NCBI GenBank assembly: GCA_903935205.1
Contig: CAIZQU010000093.1
Location: 1-36,215 of the forward strand
Direction of reading: 5' to 3'
Origin: an uncultured cyanobacterium
Lineage (GTDB): Bacteria; Cyanobacteriota; Cyanobacteriia; PCC-6307; Cyanobiaceae
Length of the DNA: 36,215 nucleotides
The notes under the pieces were generated by a model. The model saw nothing but the letters and a program-made list of their open reading frames with translations. It had not been told where the DNA came from and did not search any database. How positions within the stretch are numbered: the first letter of the stretch is position 1; each line of letters opens with the position of its first letter. The position numbers were made by a program, and so were the translations under genes. Positions 16,577-28,498 of this stretch are shown here, in pieces.

Positions 16577-17587
16577 TCATCGTCCAGAGGGCTGGGGCAC
16601 CGGGGTTCTGGATGGCGATTCGCTGCTGGTGATCGGCTGCCGATCGGCTCGACTCTGGCCGGAGGAAGCATCCTGACGATGGTTCTCAGCAGGAGCCGGG
16701 GGCAGATCGGCACCAGGCTTGCCAGCGCCGGAGGGATCCTCGGCGGGCATCAAGGTGTCGAGGATGGTGTCGATGCGGGACACAACCCGGTTGAGCCTGC
16801 GCAGCAGCGCCATCAATTCCTCCAGGCTGAGCTGGCTCTGAGCCGCGACCTGATCAACGCTGCCTCCGGTGCGACGAAAGACCCCGAGGGTGTCGCGGAC
16901 CTGGGCCAGGGTGGGCGGCAGCTCCCGTTGGAAGAGCTGGGTTGATTGCTGCCCTTGGCGCAGAGTGCCATGGAGCTCCTGAACCGTGGCAGGCAGGGCC
17001 TGATTCACAGTGGCACCGACCTGGTTGACGGACGCAAGAACCGCCGCCAGCTCTTGGATGGTGTGCGGTAACTCCCGGGAAGCGATGCGGTGGGTCGATC
17101 GAATCAGGGACTGCAGATCCGCCTGGGTGGTGGCCGCACCAGCCAGAAAGCTCTCCAGATCGGCCGTGTTCTGAGCCGTGATGGTGAAATGGTCGTGGTG
17201 CCGTCTTCCCTGCATCGGAGCCGGCGTGATGTCGACACCGCCACTTCCCAGGAGGCTGGGACGGACCAGAAAGGCCTGGCTGCGAGGCGTGACCCAGGGG
17301 CGAAAGCGATCGTCGATCTTGAGATTGAGCCTGACCCTGCCGTCGGCGAGAAGGTCGACAGCATCGATCACACCTACGTGAAGGCCTGAAACTCGGACGG
17401 GTGTGCCAGGCAACAGCCCGAGGCTACTGCCGCTGATCAAGGACACCCTCAAGCTGGGCTGGAACCAACCGAGTCGATAGCCCCAAAGCACCAGCACCCC
17501 CAGCAACAGAGCAAGACCGCTGAGGAGAAACAGGAACGAACGGCCCTGAAATGCTGGAAACGGGGATGCAGAGTTGCGGAGCAGCAT
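16577..17587 (-). CDS. MlaD-like MCE-domain protein (divergent Mla operon)
   Basis: The 336-residue protein has one N-terminal membrane anchor (about 17-37) and an MCE/MlaD domain (about 44-123: SLRVSLISGSSLGLLPGTP, VRVSGLHVGVIDAVD, SLLGSGGVDITP). Next come about 150 residues of predicted helix and coiled coil with regularly placed polar residues (LESFLAGAATTQADLQSL, a repeated LPxTxQEL motif, LAQVRDTLG) and a Pro/Ser/Gln-rich tail. MCE proteins form periplasmic hexameric rings or tubes that carry lipid between membranes; here the likely partner is the permease encoded upstream. The gap from the pseudo-ATPase gene is 177 bp, longer than the overlap inside the first pair, so an internal promoter is possible. 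Exact substrates (phospholipid or glycolipid) cannot be inferred. Confidence 0.9.
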   Translation of the reverse strand: MLLRNSASPFPAFQGRSFLFLLSGLALLLGVLVLWGYRLGWFQPSLRVSLISGSSLGLLPGTPVRVSGLHVGVIDAVDLLADGRVRLNLKIDDRFRPWVTPRSQAFLVRPSLLGSGGVDITPAPMQGRRHHDHFTITAQNTADLESFLAGAATTQADLQSLIRSTHRIASRELPHTIQELAAVLASVNQVGATVNQALPATVQELHGTLRQGQQSTQLFQRELPPTLAQVRDTLGVFRRTGGSVDQVAAQSQLSLEELMALLRRLNRVVSRIDTILDTLMPAEDPSGAGKPGADLPPAPAENHRQDASSGQSRADRQPITSSESPSRTPVPQPSGR

Positions 17588-17764
17588 GATGAAAGATACC
17601 TCGAAAAATCCTGATTACCGCCGGTGGTGATTCATATGACTCATGGCCTAGCCTGAACGATGCAGACTCACAGGATAGGGAAAGCTCAATTCTTCGAGGT
17701 GTTCTGAAGCCATTCACCCGATCAGAAACCCAACAGATCTTCACATTGAAGCGGCCAGAGCCGC

Positions 17765-18346
17765 TCACCATTCATCCCAGCTCAGGAGCCGGGGATCATC
17801 GCAGTTCACCATAGTCCAATTCCATGGACCTGCAAGGGTTGTGGCATGGGGAGCCACGGTCAGCCATGCCGCAGACGCGAACAGGGCATCCATCAATGCC
17901 GGGGGGGTGCACCATTCACCTGGAATGGGCGGGAAAAACCAGCCAGCATCAATGACAAGCCAGCGCGGTCGAAGCAGAGCGGCTCGGAGCAGAATAGCCA
18001 AGCAATACTGATGGATGGGAAGATTATCAGGATAAGCTTTAAGAAAGGAATCGCAGTCCAGGGCTGTGAGGGCTCCTACCCCGGAAAGGTTGGCGATCAG
18101 ATCGCGCAGGCCTTGATCGAGCCTCTGCGGCGGAAAGGGACGTCGCCAAGCCAATGGCAGCCAGAGATTTTCACGAACTGTGATGTTCGACAATAGGGAG
18201 CCTCGCTGTGGGGAGAGGTAGGCATAATCGATCCCTGCACGCTTCAAGCCATCACAGAGATGATCGATCCAGACACCCACGTCCTGCGCAGGACAATCGA
18301 GACGCCACCGTGGCTTCGAGCGATCAGCAGCCAGAAGATTACTCAT
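17765..18346 (-). CDS. Degenerate ABC-ATPase (MlaF-like pseudo-ATPase)
   Basis: The 193-residue product aligns by eye to the C-terminal two-thirds of MlaF ATPases, including the intact paralogue at 27635-28498. Matching landmarks are a Q-loop region YLSPQRGSLLSNITVREN (Gln47, VREN 57-60), a signature-helix region (about 108-127), a Walker-B-like LVIDAG (130-135), and an H-loop-like APHA (His167). The catalytic parts are gone: there is no P-loop upstream of the Q-loop, the LSGG signature reads NLPIHQ, and the Walker-B DE is DA. It should not hydrolyse ATP. The ATG overlaps the stop of the permease gene by 4 bp, and the frame is intact, which suggests the gene is kept and translated. It may be a structural stand-in for, or dimer partner of, a real ATPase. 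A decaying gene is the alternative. Confidence 0.7.
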   Translation of the reverse strand: MSNLLAADRSKPRWRLDCPAQDVGVWIDHLCDGLKRAGIDYAYLSPQRGSLLSNITVRENLWLPLAWRRPFPPQRLDQGLRDLIANLSGVGALTALDCDSFLKAYPDNLPIHQYCLAILLRAALLRPRWLVIDAGWFFPPIPGEWCTPPALMDALFASAAWLTVAPHATTLAGPWNWTMVNCDDPRLLSWDEW

Positions 18347-19098
18347 GGAAAACGAGCAACGGTGAAGCTGAGAATCTGAAATACAATCTCGGCCAAGAGA
18401 TAGATCAGCATCACCCTCAGCACCCCGAATGAGGCCGCTCGGGAGACCTGGGGAAAGCTTGAGTGGCCTCTGGTTTCAATCCGATCAACCCAAACGATAG
18501 CGATGGCTGCCAGCAGGGCGGAACGTATCAGACCAACCGCCAGATCAGAGGGATGGATGGTCTCAAACGCATACAGGATACGAAAGAGATCAATCGGCAC
18601 ACCAGCAACCAGGGCGCTCACAGCGAACGCAGAGACCAGGGCAGAGAGCAAAAAAACAAGATAGAGAACCATCATTGCCAACGAGGCGGCAACCAGTCGT
18701 GGAAGAATCAGATACGTGAAAGGATCAACTCCCAATCGCTGCAGGGCTTGCCGCTCGCCGGTGACTGACATCAGGCTCAGTTCCGAGATGGTTGCAGTAA
18801 TCGAACGTGCACAGAAGACAAATCCAGGTATTTGCACAGCGAGACCTCTCACCGAGAGCAGAATCAAGGCATCGATGGCCCCACTACCAAGGCCAGCACC
18901 GGTGATCCCCTGGAAAGCAAGAACAAAGCCAGAGGCAATAAGCGCAGCCGCAAGTATGACCACCAAGGACGACTGATAACCACTGAAATAGATTTGCCGA
19001 CTCAGCACAAGCAAAGCCGGCGAGCCGACCAGCCAGCGGATTGATCTCAGCGACGACCAGGCCATGAATCTGATCCGATTGGGGCGAGCCAGGGACAC
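18343..19098 (-). CDS. MlaE-like lipid ABC transporter permease
   Basis: The 251-residue protein has five or so transmembrane segments and the MlaE family core: ASGFVLAFQGITGAGLGSG, then RSITATISELSLMSVTGERQ (the conserved E-x-x-x-M of the coupling helix) with the LGVDPFTYLILPRLVAASLAM block. MlaE homologues form the inner-membrane half of MCE lipid transporters and dock onto an MlaF ATPase. Here the adjacent ATPase-like protein lacks catalytic residues. The gene opens an operon (permease, pseudo-ATPase, MCE protein) and is divergent from the FecR-barrel gene. Codon use and GC in this and the next gene look lower than in neighbouring housekeeping genes, consistent with a different history. 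The first ATG at 19098 is used; the ATG at 19065 (MAWSSLR) is an alternative. Confidence 0.9.
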   Translation of the reverse strand: MSLARPNRIRFMAWSSLRSIRWLVGSPALLVLSRQIYFSGYQSSLVVILAAALIASGFVLAFQGITGAGLGSGAIDALILLSVRGLAVQIPGFVFCARSITATISELSLMSVTGERQALQRLGVDPFTYLILPRLVAASLAMMVLYLVFLLSALVSAFAVSALVAGVPIDLFRILYAFETIHPSDLAVGLIRSALLAAIAIVWVDRIETRGHSSFPQVSRAASFGVLRVMLIYLLAEIVFQILSFTVARFP

Positions 19099-19210
19099 AA
19101 GACAACGCTCAATCAGGCGAATCGCAGACCATGGTGCCAGCTATCCATCTGTCACACTGGCCCCGACGCTCGATATTCGCTACGCTCGCAAGGCGCAATC
19201 ACATTCTGCG

Positions 19211-21199
19211 ATGGATAGCTTTCTTTCTAGTCGATACGGCGGTTTTTGCAGCTCACCCACCAGGTTGCACCACAGCCGTCTTCGCCCAAACCGCCAGCTC
19301 TTACTGCTAAGCCTGCCGCTGCTAAGCCTGGTGGTGACCAGCCCCATTCTGGCCGCACCATTCCAGAAAGCAACGGTGGTTGAAATGATCAATGGTCGTC
19401 AAGTCTATATCAATAGCAAGCCAGCAAGCAGGGGGCAGGAGGCCGGCAGAGGGAGTGTGATCCAAACCAAAAACAGCAGTGCCCGACTGCAGTTCGATCA
19501 ACGCGCCGCCGGCTTGATGGGCCGCGATTCTCTGATCAAACTTGGTGCGGCCTGCTTCCAGCTTGATCGCGGCAAGGTGGTTGTTAATGGCAAGCAGAAG
19601 ACCTGTTTCGGATCCAGTATCCTGGCTATCGATGGAACCACCTACCTCATCGGTCGCGAGCCGGATCAGAGCTACACCGTCGATCTTCTCGCAGGCGATG
19701 CCAGGGTCAGCCGCGCACCGGCATCCATCGATACATTAGATGCCGATGAATCCACCGCTGGCACTGGCAATCAAAGCGATGGCGATGGGCCCAATATTCT
19801 ATCGACCTACCCGCGAGTCGCACCCTGGGTGGGAGCGACCGCAGGTGGCTTCGGTAGCGCCTATCCCAGTGGCGGCGGCAGTTTCACGGGTGGCCTGAGC
19901 TATTTTCAACCCATGGCCCAAAGCGGTGCCAAGCAGCTCCTTTACACCTCCGCCTCCGTCGGCAGTTCGTTCCAGGATATTTGGGGATTTTCCACGGAGG
20001 TGGGTTACCGCTGGCTGACTCCTGCGATCCAATCGACCAATAGTGCCTACCTTGGCTACTCCGGCTATGGCGCCCCTGGCTGTTACACCAACATGCTCAA
20101 TGGCGGCGCCCAGTGGGAGCGTGCACGCTGGCGCCTGGGCGCCAGCGGCGGCCTGAAGTTGAATGAGTGCAGCTCAAGCTTCAACTATGCGGCGCTCAAT
20201 CTCTCGATCCCGGTTGGTCAGATAAACACTCGGCCGGCCTACTTCTCCATTTCTCCTTATTTGCTGAATGGCAATATTGTCAGTGCCGATCTTCTGGAGT
20301 CAGACACCACCCCCGATAGCTTCCCCGGTTTACGTCTGAGTCTGGAGCTTCCGATCACCCCATCGCTCTCGGTCAAAGGTTATGGGGGGGCGGACAGCGT
20401 GTTTGGGATCAGCGCCGGTGGTCAGTTCATCCTCAGGATTCCCAGCTCCACCAAGATCATCAAAGACCCCAACGTCCCGCCTGTCGCGCCGCGAACCGCC
20501 GCGGCCGGGAGCCTGCCTATCGCTCTCGCCAGCGCCACGACATCCCTGCCGACCGCAACGGCTCCGCAAGCTCTGCTGGCCTTTGCCGCCCCCGCAGCGG
20601 CCCCAACCTCTGATCAACCCGCCGGTCTCTTCTCGCCTCCAGCAGCTACCACACTGGGCCAGGGCGCAGCACCGATCGTGATCCAACAGGGGCAACGGGG
20701 TCGATTCAGCCCCGATGGTGATCTGCTCAGCATTGAGCCGATCAGCAACCGCGAATTTTTACAGCTATTGATCACTAACTTCAAGGGTCATGCCCCATTG
20801 CCTGAAAGCCACCGTATCGCCAGGATCGCCCAGCAGCGAGGTATTCTCTCGCCCCAAGTCGCCGGGGTTCTCGGGACTGATTTCCTGGCCAACGCCTCCC
20901 AATCGATCAGTGCAACGCTGGACACACCATTCAGTCCACTGACCCAGATGCCCGCCGGCCGTTTTGTCTGTGCCGCCACCAAAAAAGCGCGGATGATTGG
21001 AGCCGAGGAAGCAGAGAAGGGCCAGTTTGATTACAGTGGCGGGCCGGCCTACTTCGGCAAGGGATCGGAAACATCCCAGGGCTACCCGGCTACATACAAC
21101 AAGTCGGACGCCTTTGTGTTCGCCGATGCCGGCGTCTGCCGCGAGCTCAATCGCCTGGCCGATCAGGGCTACGACGTCGTCGAGGCGGAGCCGATCTGA
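19211..21199 (+). CDS. Secreted protein with FecR domain and probable beta-barrel
   Basis: The 662-residue protein starts at ATG 19211. A basic n-region and hydrophobic core (about 29-44) with cleavage near ILA-APF (48/49) form a signal peptide. Residues about 57-166 match the FecR fold: GRQVYINSKPASRGQEAGRG, then SVIQTKNSSARLQF, LDRGKVVVNG, and AIDGTTYLIG before YTVDLLAGDARVS. About 203-411 is Gly/Ser/Tyr-rich with alternating aromatic/hydrophobic strands ending LRLSLELPITPSLSVKGYGG, resembling an outer-membrane barrel of the inverse-autotransporter type. A Pro/Ala/Thr linker (415-500) and a conserved-looking C-terminal domain with a few Cys follow. It is transcribed away from the permease operon. 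The frame is open to 19064, but that extension overlaps the permease gene. Its function is unknown. Confidence 0.75.
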   Translation: MDSFLSSRYGGFCSSPTRLHHSRLRPNRQLLLLSLPLLSLVVTSPILAAPFQKATVVEMINGRQVYINSKPASRGQEAGRGSVIQTKNSSARLQFDQRAAGLMGRDSLIKLGAACFQLDRGKVVVNGKQKTCFGSSILAIDGTTYLIGREPDQSYTVDLLAGDARVSRAPASIDTLDADESTAGTGNQSDGDGPNILSTYPRVAPWVGATAGGFGSAYPSGGGSFTGGLSYFQPMAQSGAKQLLYTSASVGSSFQDIWGFSTEVGYRWLTPAIQSTNSAYLGYSGYGAPGCYTNMLNGGAQWERARWRLGASGGLKLNECSSSFNYAALNLSIPVGQINTRPAYFSISPYLLNGNIVSADLLESDTTPDSFPGLRLSLELPITPSLSVKGYGGADSVFGISAGGQFILRIPSSTKIIKDPNVPPVAPRTAAAGSLPIALASATTSLPTATAPQALLAFAAPAAAPTSDQPAGLFSPPAATTLGQGAAPIVIQQGQRGRFSPDGDLLSIEPISNREFLQLLITNFKGHAPLPESHRIARIAQQRGILSPQVAGVLGTDFLANASQSISATLDTPFSPLTQMPAGRFVCAATKKARMIGAEEAEKGQFDYSGGPAYFGKGSETSQGYPATYNKSDAFVFADAGVCRELNRLADQGYDVVEAEPI

Positions 21200-26484: not shown

Positions 26485-27630
26485 TCAGGGAGCTACGAGC
26501 CGCGGCATCCCCCTGGTGGGCAGTGGCATCGCCGGGGCCTTGCTGCGGGGGGCCATGCGATCCTCCAAGGTTGGCTGGGGAGTCGAGCCCGCCCGTCCGC
26601 GCTGCTGCGAGCTGGCTGCTGCGGGGGCGGAGGCGGATGGGGTGGTTGCCCGCGGCCGGTGACCCGATGGCGCTGGTTTTGGGGTCGGCTCCACGCCGGC
26701 GGGGGCAGCGCTGGGAGCACCGCTTGGATAGAGATCGTCGAAGAAGCGCCCCAACCCCACCGACACCCGCTGCAGGCCCTCGATGAAACGGGGATCGTCG
26801 GTGAGCTTGCGCAGATCGCCGCCGACGGCGGTCCAGCGCTCGGTGAGCTGGCGTGCGTTGGCCAGGGTGGCCTCAAGATCGGCGGCGGTGGCGGGGTTGT
26901 CGAGGCGGCGGGCGACGCGCTTCAACGACTGACTGGCCTGGCTGGCATCGACGGAGGCGGCGGTCACATTGCGCAGGATCGGATCGGTGCGCTCCACCAG
27001 GCTGGCGAGGGACTGGGTCAGGCTCTGGGCATCGCCCACGAACGCCTGACCCTGGGTGGAGAGCTTCTCCGCTTCACGGGCGGTGCGGGTGAAGCTGGCG
27101 GTGCTTTCGGCCAGCCGCTGCACCAACCGCTGGCTGTCGGCCTGATCCAGCAGCTTCTGCATCGTGCTGGTCACGCTGTCGAGGTTGGGCGCCTCGATGC
27201 CCGCCACTTCGCCCCGCTCGCAGACCAGGCGGCGGTTGTCGCAGCCAGGCTGCCGAGGCCCGGCAGAACCGCGGGGGATGGCGGCGTCGCTGGTCAGCAG
27301 GGAGACCACCGCATCACCGCCAAGCAACGAGGCCGTGCCGACCCTGGCCAGCACCGGGCGGGTCAGCCGCAGATCGGGATCGGTGATCTCCAGCTCAGCC
27401 ACCACCTGTCGCTCGTTGACCTGCAGGCCCTTGACCCGACCGACCAACACTCCGCGATACAGGACCGGCGAGCGCGGTGCCAGACCGGCGGCATCCTCGA
27501 AGCTGGCCCGAATGATCCAGTTGGACCGGGCCAGGGAGACCCCCTTCAACCAGAACCACAACCCCAGCCCACCGCCGATCGCTGCCAACAGCGAGAACCC
27601 GACCAGAGCCTCTCGAACACTGCGACGCAT
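26485..27630 (-). CDS. MlaD-like MCE-domain protein (chlD-linked Mla set)
   Basis: The 381-residue protein has an N-terminal membrane helix (about 9-28), an MCE domain (about 36-112: SNWIIRASFEDAAGL, VLYRGVLVGRVKGLQ, VGTASLLGGDAVVSL), a small Cys-containing loop with PGCDNRRLVCERGEVAG, a long helical region (about 150-300), and a Pro/Ala/Arg-rich tail. MCE rings shuttle lipids across the periplasm. The start is ATG 27628-27630 (MRRSVREALVGFSLL), since residues upstream to 27663 are unlike the family. It is encoded 4 bp after the ATPase gene, so the two form a transport operon. Its stop lies 15 bp from that of chlD on the other strand (convergent). No permease gene is in this operon. Confidence 0.9.
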   Translation of the reverse strand: MRRSVREALVGFSLLAAIGGGLGLWFWLKGVSLARSNWIIRASFEDAAGLAPRSPVLYRGVLVGRVKGLQVNERQVVAELEITDPDLRLTRPVLARVGTASLLGGDAVVSLLTSDAAIPRGSAGPRQPGCDNRRLVCERGEVAGIEAPNLDSVTSTMQKLLDQADSQRLVQRLAESTASFTRTAREAEKLSTQGQAFVGDAQSLTQSLASLVERTDPILRNVTAASVDASQASQSLKRVARRLDNPATAADLEATLANARQLTERWTAVGGDLRKLTDDPRFIEGLQRVSVGLGRFFDDLYPSGAPSAAPAGVEPTPKPAPSGHRPRATTPSASAPAAASSQQRGRAGSTPQPTLEDRMAPRSKAPAMPLPTRGMPRLVAP

Positions 27631-27634
27631 GGGG

Positions 27635-28498
27635 TCAGGGTTCCGCCGGCTGCATCGGTCCATCCAGGCTACCGGTACGGAATTGGTGGACGTAGGGATC
27701 GTCGCTGGTCAGAAACGCCTCAAGGGTGCCGTCCCAGCGGAAGCGACCGTCGTAGAGGAGGATGACCCGCTCAGCACAACGCTCAATCGTGCTGAGCACA
27801 TGGCTCACAACCACGCCGGCGGCGTTGGTGAGTTCGGTGCTGCGCACGATCAGATCCTCGACCCTGGTGCAGGCCACAGGATCGAGGCCGGCGGTGGGTT
27901 CATCGAACAGCAGCAGGGGGGCAAGGCCGCCCACCGCGGCAGGGTCATCGATCAGGGCCCGGGCGAAGCTGACCCGCTTCTGCATGCCGCCGCTCAGCTC
28001 ACCGGGCAGGCGCTCCTCGATGCCGTAGAGGCCCACAGCCGCCAGAGCGCGGCTGACCCGCTCGCGGATCTCAGCCTCGCTGAGTCGGCTGAAGCGATAG
28101 AGCAGAAAGCCCACGTTCTCGCGCACGTTGAGCGATGCGAGCAGGGCCGGGTTCTGGAACACCAGGCGCACGTCGGGGGGGCGGCGTTGATCCAGGCGCA
28201 GGTAGGTCTGGAGCTCCCCGTGGATGCGCACATCACCGCTGCTGGGCAGCAGCAGGCCGGCCAGCAGGCGCAGGATCGTCGACTTGCCAGCCCCTGAGGG
28301 ACCGACCACCACCAGGCGCTCCCCAGCCAGCACACGCAGATTGACCCGATCGAGCACGGTGCGGCTCCCCCGGACCATCGAGAGGTTGACCATCTCAGCG
28401 ACGGGCTGGGCGGATCCGCTGGCGGCGGAGCCCGATCCAGGGACAGGAGGCGGTGAGGCGGCAGCAACCACAGCCGCGGCGCGATGTTGGGCGATCAT
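27635..28498 (-). CDS. MlaF-like lipid transporter ATP-binding protein
   Basis: The 287-residue ABC ATPase has all catalytic motifs: Walker A VGPSGAGKST (about 65-74), Q-loop LVFQNPALLASLNVREN, signature LSGGMQKRVSFARAL, Walker B LLLFDEPTAGLD and H-loop VVVSHV. The RGSRTVLDRVNLRV start and the VREN block are typical of MlaF/Ttg2A lipid importers or exporters. The first 35 residues (Ala/Pro/Ser-rich) precede the domain; the ATG at 28496-28498 is used, and ATG codons near residue 36 are alternatives. The long open frame continuing upstream to 29542 is a GC artefact antisense to yvcK. With the MCE gene 4 bp downstream it forms a two-gene unit; the matching permease must be elsewhere. Confidence 0.94.
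   Translation of the reverse strand: MIAQHRAAAVVAAASPPPVPGSGSAASGSAQPVAEMVNLSMVRGSRTVLDRVNLRVLAGERLVVVGPSGAGKSTILRLLAGLLLPSSGDVRIHGELQTYLRLDQRRPPDVRLVFQNPALLASLNVRENVGFLLYRFSRLSEAEIRERVSRALAAVGLYGIEERLPGELSGGMQKRVSFARALIDDPAAVGGLAPLLLFDEPTAGLDPVACTRVEDLIVRSTELTNAAGVVVSHVLSTIERCAERVILLYDGRFRWDGTLEAFLTSDDPYVHQFRTGSLDGPMQPAEP

Follow-up and report, generated by a model that had tools for sequence, protein, structure and literature searches.

An MlaF-derived ORF without catalytic ATPase motifs in a second picocyanobacterial MCE operon

The closest described relatives of the operon reported here are MlaFEDB and the minimal MlaEFD of E. coli and Veillonella parvula, which likewise combine a PF02405 permease, a PF02470 MCE protein, and an MlaF relative in one operon. 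The V. parvula mlaEFD genes are reported to form one operon in which the codons of mlaF and mlaD overlap, and MlaEFD has been described as an ancestral core (PMC10665443). In E. coli, the coupling helix of MlaE mediates its contact with MlaF, and the MlaF subunits wrap around each other via a C-terminal extension (PMC7790496). For Synechococcus elongatus, an ABC system has been described to which MlaD, MlaE, and MlaF belong (PMC7464499). Other MCE systems have no working ATPase of their own. PqiABC and LetAB are reported to employ another membrane protein (PMC10897342; PMC12436622). PqiA is predicted to adopt a unique fold common only to LetA; if it is a transporter, it has been suggested to be passive, or to depend on an unidentified ATPase or on proton-motive force (PMC10897342). 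In mycobacteria, Mce1 and Mce4 are energised by one live ATPase, MceG, which they share (PMC9947336).

We analyzed a 36,215-nucleotide stretch of DNA from an uncultured cyanobacterium of the family Cyanobiaceae, hereafter the window. Its minus strand encodes, in this order, an MlaE-type permease, an ORF that we refer to as a putative pseudo-ATPase, and a second-type MCE protein (Table 1). As a preliminary description of this DNA had stated, the ORF occupies the place of the ATPase in an MCE operon, its start overlapping the permease stop, and forms an intact frame, open from ATG to stop. Annotation of the same interval on the plus strand was rejected because of an internal stop codon. No promoter-like site was found within 17300-19300.

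Table 1. Coordinates of the second MCE operon and of the canonical MCE genes in the window
Feature	Position	Strand	Description
Pseudo-ATPase ORF, MlaF-derived	17765..18346	minus	193 codons (aa), ATG to stop
MlaE-type permease, second MCE operon	18343..19098	minus	251 aa, GTG start, PF02405 4e-24
Second-type MCE protein	16577..17587	minus	336 aa, PF02470 1.2e-08, family profile A2
Overlap of permease stop and pseudo-ATPase start	18343..18346	minus	4 bp, ATGA
Gap between pseudo-ATPase and MCE gene	17588..17764	minus	177 bp; no gap in the G102 orthologue
Coupling segment, permease residues 106-134	18697..18783	minus	ELSLMSVTGERQALQRLGVDPFTYLILPR; 29 aa, full length as in E. coli MlaE
Pseudo-ATPase residues 14-30, probable place of the lost P-loop strand-loop-helix	18257..18307	minus	WRLDCPAQDVGVWIDHL; placed by register and spacing to the Q-loop, outside the hhalign-aligned part
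Pseudo-ATPase residues 41-70, Q-loop position	18137..18226	minus	Best-conserved block, GxLxS...ENxWLPxxWRxP, from alignment with the orthologue
Pseudo-ATPase residues 129-138, Walker B position	17933..17962	minus	WLVIDAGWFF, DA for DE
Canonical intact MlaF ATPase	27635..28498	minus	PF00005 7.1e-28
Canonical MCE protein adjoining MlaF	26485..27663	minus	PF02470 2.8e-15

As in MlaEFD-type systems, the operon contains an MlaE permease with a coupling helix and an MCE-domain protein. In contrast to them, it has no ATPase with catalytic motifs inside the operon, its MlaF relative being devoid of them, and a complete canonical MlaF is encoded separately in the same genome. Although PqiABC and LetAB resemble the window operon in lacking a working ATPase of their own, its membrane subunit is of the PF02405 rather than the PqiA/LetA type, and its MCE protein has a single MlaD stretch (residues 47-122), whereas PqiAB/LetAB systems carry several MCE domains on a single protein. 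The Mce1 and Mce4 operons also lack a working ATPase of their own (PMC9947336), but there one live ATPase is shared, whereas the window operon retains a dead one and in most of its examined relatives the coupling segment is shortened. A literature search that left out bioRxiv preprints and most subscription journals returned no MCE operon with a dead ATPase and no MlaE without a coupling helix. By their listed coordinates, the ORFs of the canonical MCE protein and MlaF share 29 bp; no MlaE adjoins them within the window, and this genome's other MlaE-like match is at a different place (G000:C71).

Catalytic motifs were sought by alignment and by a six-frame scan. Each loss named in the preliminary description was found: Walker A (GxxxxGK[ST]) is absent, NLPIHQ (starting at residue 108) takes the place of LSGG, and Walker B reads IDAGWF from residue 132, with DA in place of DE. 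The landmarks that had been reported as kept fared unevenly. The window protein does carry SPQRGS at the Q-loop position, ITVREN, and APH at the H-loop position, but its one known orthologue, from a Synechococcus lacustris MAG (G102) of another genus, has neither the Q-loop Gln nor the H-loop His and shares only the EN of VREN. Common to the two copies are the missing P-loop and D-A-x-W at Walker B together with the following F (IDA in the window, FDA in the orthologue). None of the six frames of 17000-19400 contains LSGG or a hydrophobic-DE Walker B, and the single P-loop-like string there, AGSDAGKT, lies outside the ORF, in a minus-strand frame at ~17.2 kb in the MCE gene region. Thus, no frameshift hides a live ATPase. 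ABC transporters of the TAP and CFTR type, with one degenerate nucleotide site, also have a non-canonical nucleotide-binding half, but they keep Walker A in both halves, whereas the whole P-loop is gone from the window protein.

By itself, the ORF had no match in Pfam (no family at E<=1, PF00005 included) or the PDB; its best and only NCBIfam match, the ABC protein LsrA, was not significant (E 0.094), and pairwise blastp against the window's own MlaF gave nothing. A profile of the ORF and its orthologue was then compared by hhalign with 27 MlaF sequences (26 from genomes, including that of the window, and one from E. coli). The two profiles aligned from the Q-loop to Walker B with a probability of 93 and a P of 3.5e-7; none of 100 column shuffles did as well, and the reversed alignment gave P 0.79. 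Compared singly with MlaF, the two proteins gave P 7.4e-5 and 2.8e-4. When 400 genomes of the family were searched with the pair profile at E<=1e-3, 12 genomes were matched, comprising the two true copies and 10 weak matches; six of the weak matches were read in the right frame, the other four being left unread, and all six were ABC ATPases. Two AlphaFold models had mean pLDDT values of 37.7 and 39.4, too poor to judge an ABC fold or docking. We conclude from these sequence comparisons that the putative pseudo-ATPase shares common descent with MlaF and the ABC ATPases, as the preliminary description had proposed.

The G102 protein (184 aa; tblastn 1e-12, blastp 4e-15) is encoded in an operon of identical gene order. 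There, too, the pseudo-ATPase start and the permease stop share 4 bp, and the pseudo-ATPase gene also runs into the MCE gene, by 4 bp if the latter begins at the ATG seen or by 40 bp with a longer ORF and an earlier start. The two pseudo-ATPases are 29.1% identical (52/179), compared with 31.7% for the permeases and 27.4% for the MCE proteins of the same two operons and 66.5% for the canonical MlaF of both genomes. At fourfold sites of identical residues, third bases agreed in 11 of 34 cases, where 9.4 are expected at saturation. That silent sites are saturated while the protein is about as conserved as its operon partners argues for its having been kept by selection, and against drift under the relaxed selection that the preliminary description had named as a possible objection. 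Moreover, D-A-x-W and the absence of the P-loop in both copies suggest that the ATPase had died before the two lineages separated.

The expectation of orthologues with the same gene order was borne out in another genus, but the gene is rare. True copies were found in 2 of the 400 family genomes (the window and G102), and a scan of 42 genomes of the genus recovered only the window's own copy. Class-wide, the pair profile matched 1 of 388 genomes, the window itself, G102 evidently lying outside that sample; scanning genome contigs, it found one locus, in the S. lacustris MAG, and a permease scan of such contigs found nothing. A search with the ORF gave no true match in 59 other genomes of relatives, the match in G030 (E 0.0086) covering about 56 residues inside a 605-codon frame. 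A second match in the window's own genome (E 0.36) was taken as chance. Overall, the earlier interpretation of the ORF as an MlaF-derived, catalytically stripped, and retained pseudo-ATPase is supported: as judged from sequence, two genera have preserved both the reading frame and the operon position of a protein of this kind without catalytic motifs.

We next consider the relatives of the operon as a whole. A profile built from ten second-type MCE proteins, with a cut-off of 1e-12, detected such genes in 79 of the 400 family genomes. We read 72 places (71 and the window), leaving others unread, for example those in G299, G342, G246, G382, and G278. Some genomes (G020, G103, G256, and G105) had second-type MCE matches at two separate places each. 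At 1e-5, 69 of the 72 places had a recognisable permease, the misses being L070, L152, and L162. L070 has a multi-TM-looking ORF at the permease place and is not a miss at the looser cut of 1e-3; at L152 (G103) and L162 (G247), unlike the other places, nothing recognisable as a permease lies upstream of the second-type MCE gene. With the first MCE base matched, rather than the start codon, taken as its far end, the distance from the permease stop was 756 bp in the window and 512 bp in G102, the only values above 500 bp. In the other 67 of the 69 places it ranged from -42 to 168 bp, which is too small for an ATPase. Likewise, profile searches of 90 loci (duplicates counted, window excluded) revealed no ORF resembling MlaF or the pseudo-ATPase in the interval from permease to MCE gene besides that of G102. 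ABC ATPases do occur near some of these loci, none of them between permease and MCE gene: the pairs at L074, L076, L077, L078, and L081 are some 5 kb away from the MCE gene, and the match at L156 falls in a 745-codon frame that resembles an exporter and lies upstream of the permease.

The coupling segment, whose length was taken from a single alignment throughout, comprises 29 residues in E. coli MlaE, in five canonical cyanobacterial MlaE, and in the permeases of the window, G102, and G139. It is shorter than in MlaE in 66 of the 69 permeases, with 20 residues in G105 and 11-26 in the other 65. The permeases of L144 and L154 are only three residues short, and the coupling motif is not recognisable there. 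G139 has no ATPase gene beside its permease; thus, the full-length segment does not strictly require one. Even the degenerate permeases are still recognisable as relatives of MlaE, unlike PqiA and LetA: 16 shortened ones aligned with MlaE at hhalign P 1.1e-6 (reversed control, 0.13), and Pfam found MlaE in three of five tested, one of them above the gathering score. L134-L173 and other second-type loci form family-wide pairs of MlaE-like permease and MCE protein, with no ATPase between them and a shortened coupling segment.

Among the 400 family genomes, the closest relatives of the window permease are those of G139, G105, and G102 (30-35% identity). MCE, permease, and joined trees all grouped the window with G139 and G105 (support 0.998 to 1.0). 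When the tree was rooted on canonical MlaE, the window/G139/G105 group split first, G102 next, and then the shortened permeases; this root is tentative, with long branches and no support value for the place of G102. The simplest reading is that the ATPase would have been dead but present in the common ancestor and then lost in the line of G139 and G105, and that a second loss, accompanied by erosion of the coupling helix, would have occurred in the line leading to the remaining relatives.

The part of an ABC ATPase that follows the Q-loop is the one that meets the permease. In our preferred reading, which we hold to be rather probable, the ORF encodes a non-catalytic, MlaF-derived scaffold subunit of a second, divergent MCE lipid transporter that is losing its motor. 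The pseudo-ATPase would dock via its helical subdomain (the GxLxS...ENxWLP block) on the intact coupling helix of the permease and would hold permease and MCE ring together without ATP, and lipid would move through the transporter passively or under some other drive. Since most of the related operons examined have no gene for an ATPase and a coupling segment of reduced length, the window may show an intermediate in motor loss. In favor of the scaffold, the pseudo-ATPase co-occurs with a full-length coupling segment in both of its carriers; against it, the carriers number just two, a MAG among them, GC3 is low in the window copy and its permease, and G139 has kept the segment with no ATPase gene beside it. 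By analogy, MceG offers a precedent for a stabilising role, as its loss is reported to destabilise the mycobacterial transporters; MceG Walker B mutants, however, are reported to fail in supporting transporter stability (PMC9947336), and a dead ATPase is therefore not automatically a good scaffold. Together, the data suggest a membrane transporter working without its engine; if so, an ABC transporter would have been retained despite the loss of its motor, which would be unusual. One permease fold would then be available in a natural series (with a live ATPase, with a dead ATPase and a coupling helix, and with no ATPase and a shortened segment), in which the part of the motor in lipid movement and that of the pseudo-ATPase in assembly could be tested. 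A wider proposal, on which we are evenly divided, is that a picocyanobacterial class of MCE systems on MlaE-type permeases gave up ATP, first keeping the dead ATPase as a scaffold and then, by its loss and erosion of the helix, arriving at a motor-free permease-MCE conduit. If so, a primary active transporter would have turned passive or gradient-driven.

The live MlaF of the window could instead power the second permease in trans, in an asymmetric pair to which the pseudo-ATPase contributes the dead half. A canonical MlaF was present in all 26 chosen genomes, the window's own included, the window permease keeps its coupling segment, and in mycobacteria MceG is reported to be common to several MCE permeases (PMC9947336). 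However, the alignment places the end of the 193-aa pseudo-ATPase before the C-terminal, wrap-around extension of E. coli MlaF. In ABC dimers, moreover, the composite nucleotide sites take parts from both halves; with LSGG, Walker A, and the Walker B glutamate all missing from the pseudo-ATPase, each composite site formed with MlaF would lose parts on one side. Both points are weak evidence against such a pair. We consider this sharing of the motor unlikely.

Somewhat more doubtful still is that the ORF is a decaying gene, an ATPase that recently lost function and awaits deletion. Its rarity and the absence of an ATPase gene from the operons of G105 and G139, the nearest relatives of the window operon, would fit, as would base composition: GC3 is 0.562 in the window pseudo-ATPase and 0.579 in the permease, compared with a range of 0.655-0.858 across the other 12 genes measured (0.721 in the MCE gene). 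These low values could reflect either relaxed selection or transfer. The G102 copy, however, has a normal GC3 of 0.686 (five neighbouring genes, 0.656-0.745). Recent decay is also at odds with an intact frame and overlapping starts in two genera, with a protein as conserved as its operon partners across saturated synonymous sites, and with the shared D-A-x-W and P-loop absence, which suggest death already in the common ancestor. The nearest relatives of the operon belong to another genus (g70), and low GC3 together with these relatives makes horizontal transfer of the permease and pseudo-ATPase possible. Finally, a small operon protein unrelated to ABC proteins, resembling MlaF by chance, would accord with the empty Pfam, PDB, and blastp searches and the insignificant NCBIfam match, but is very improbable given the hhalign score with its clean shuffled and reversed controls, the ABC identity of all six weak matches read in frame, and the position of the gene.

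Divergently transcribed from the operon is a long plus-strand ORF (19064-21199) with no Pfam match. Part of it, starting at residue 103, shares 32.5-34.5% identity with proteins whose genes lie upstream of the second-type permease at L065 and L067, and it may represent a conserved neighbour gene of the second MCE operon.
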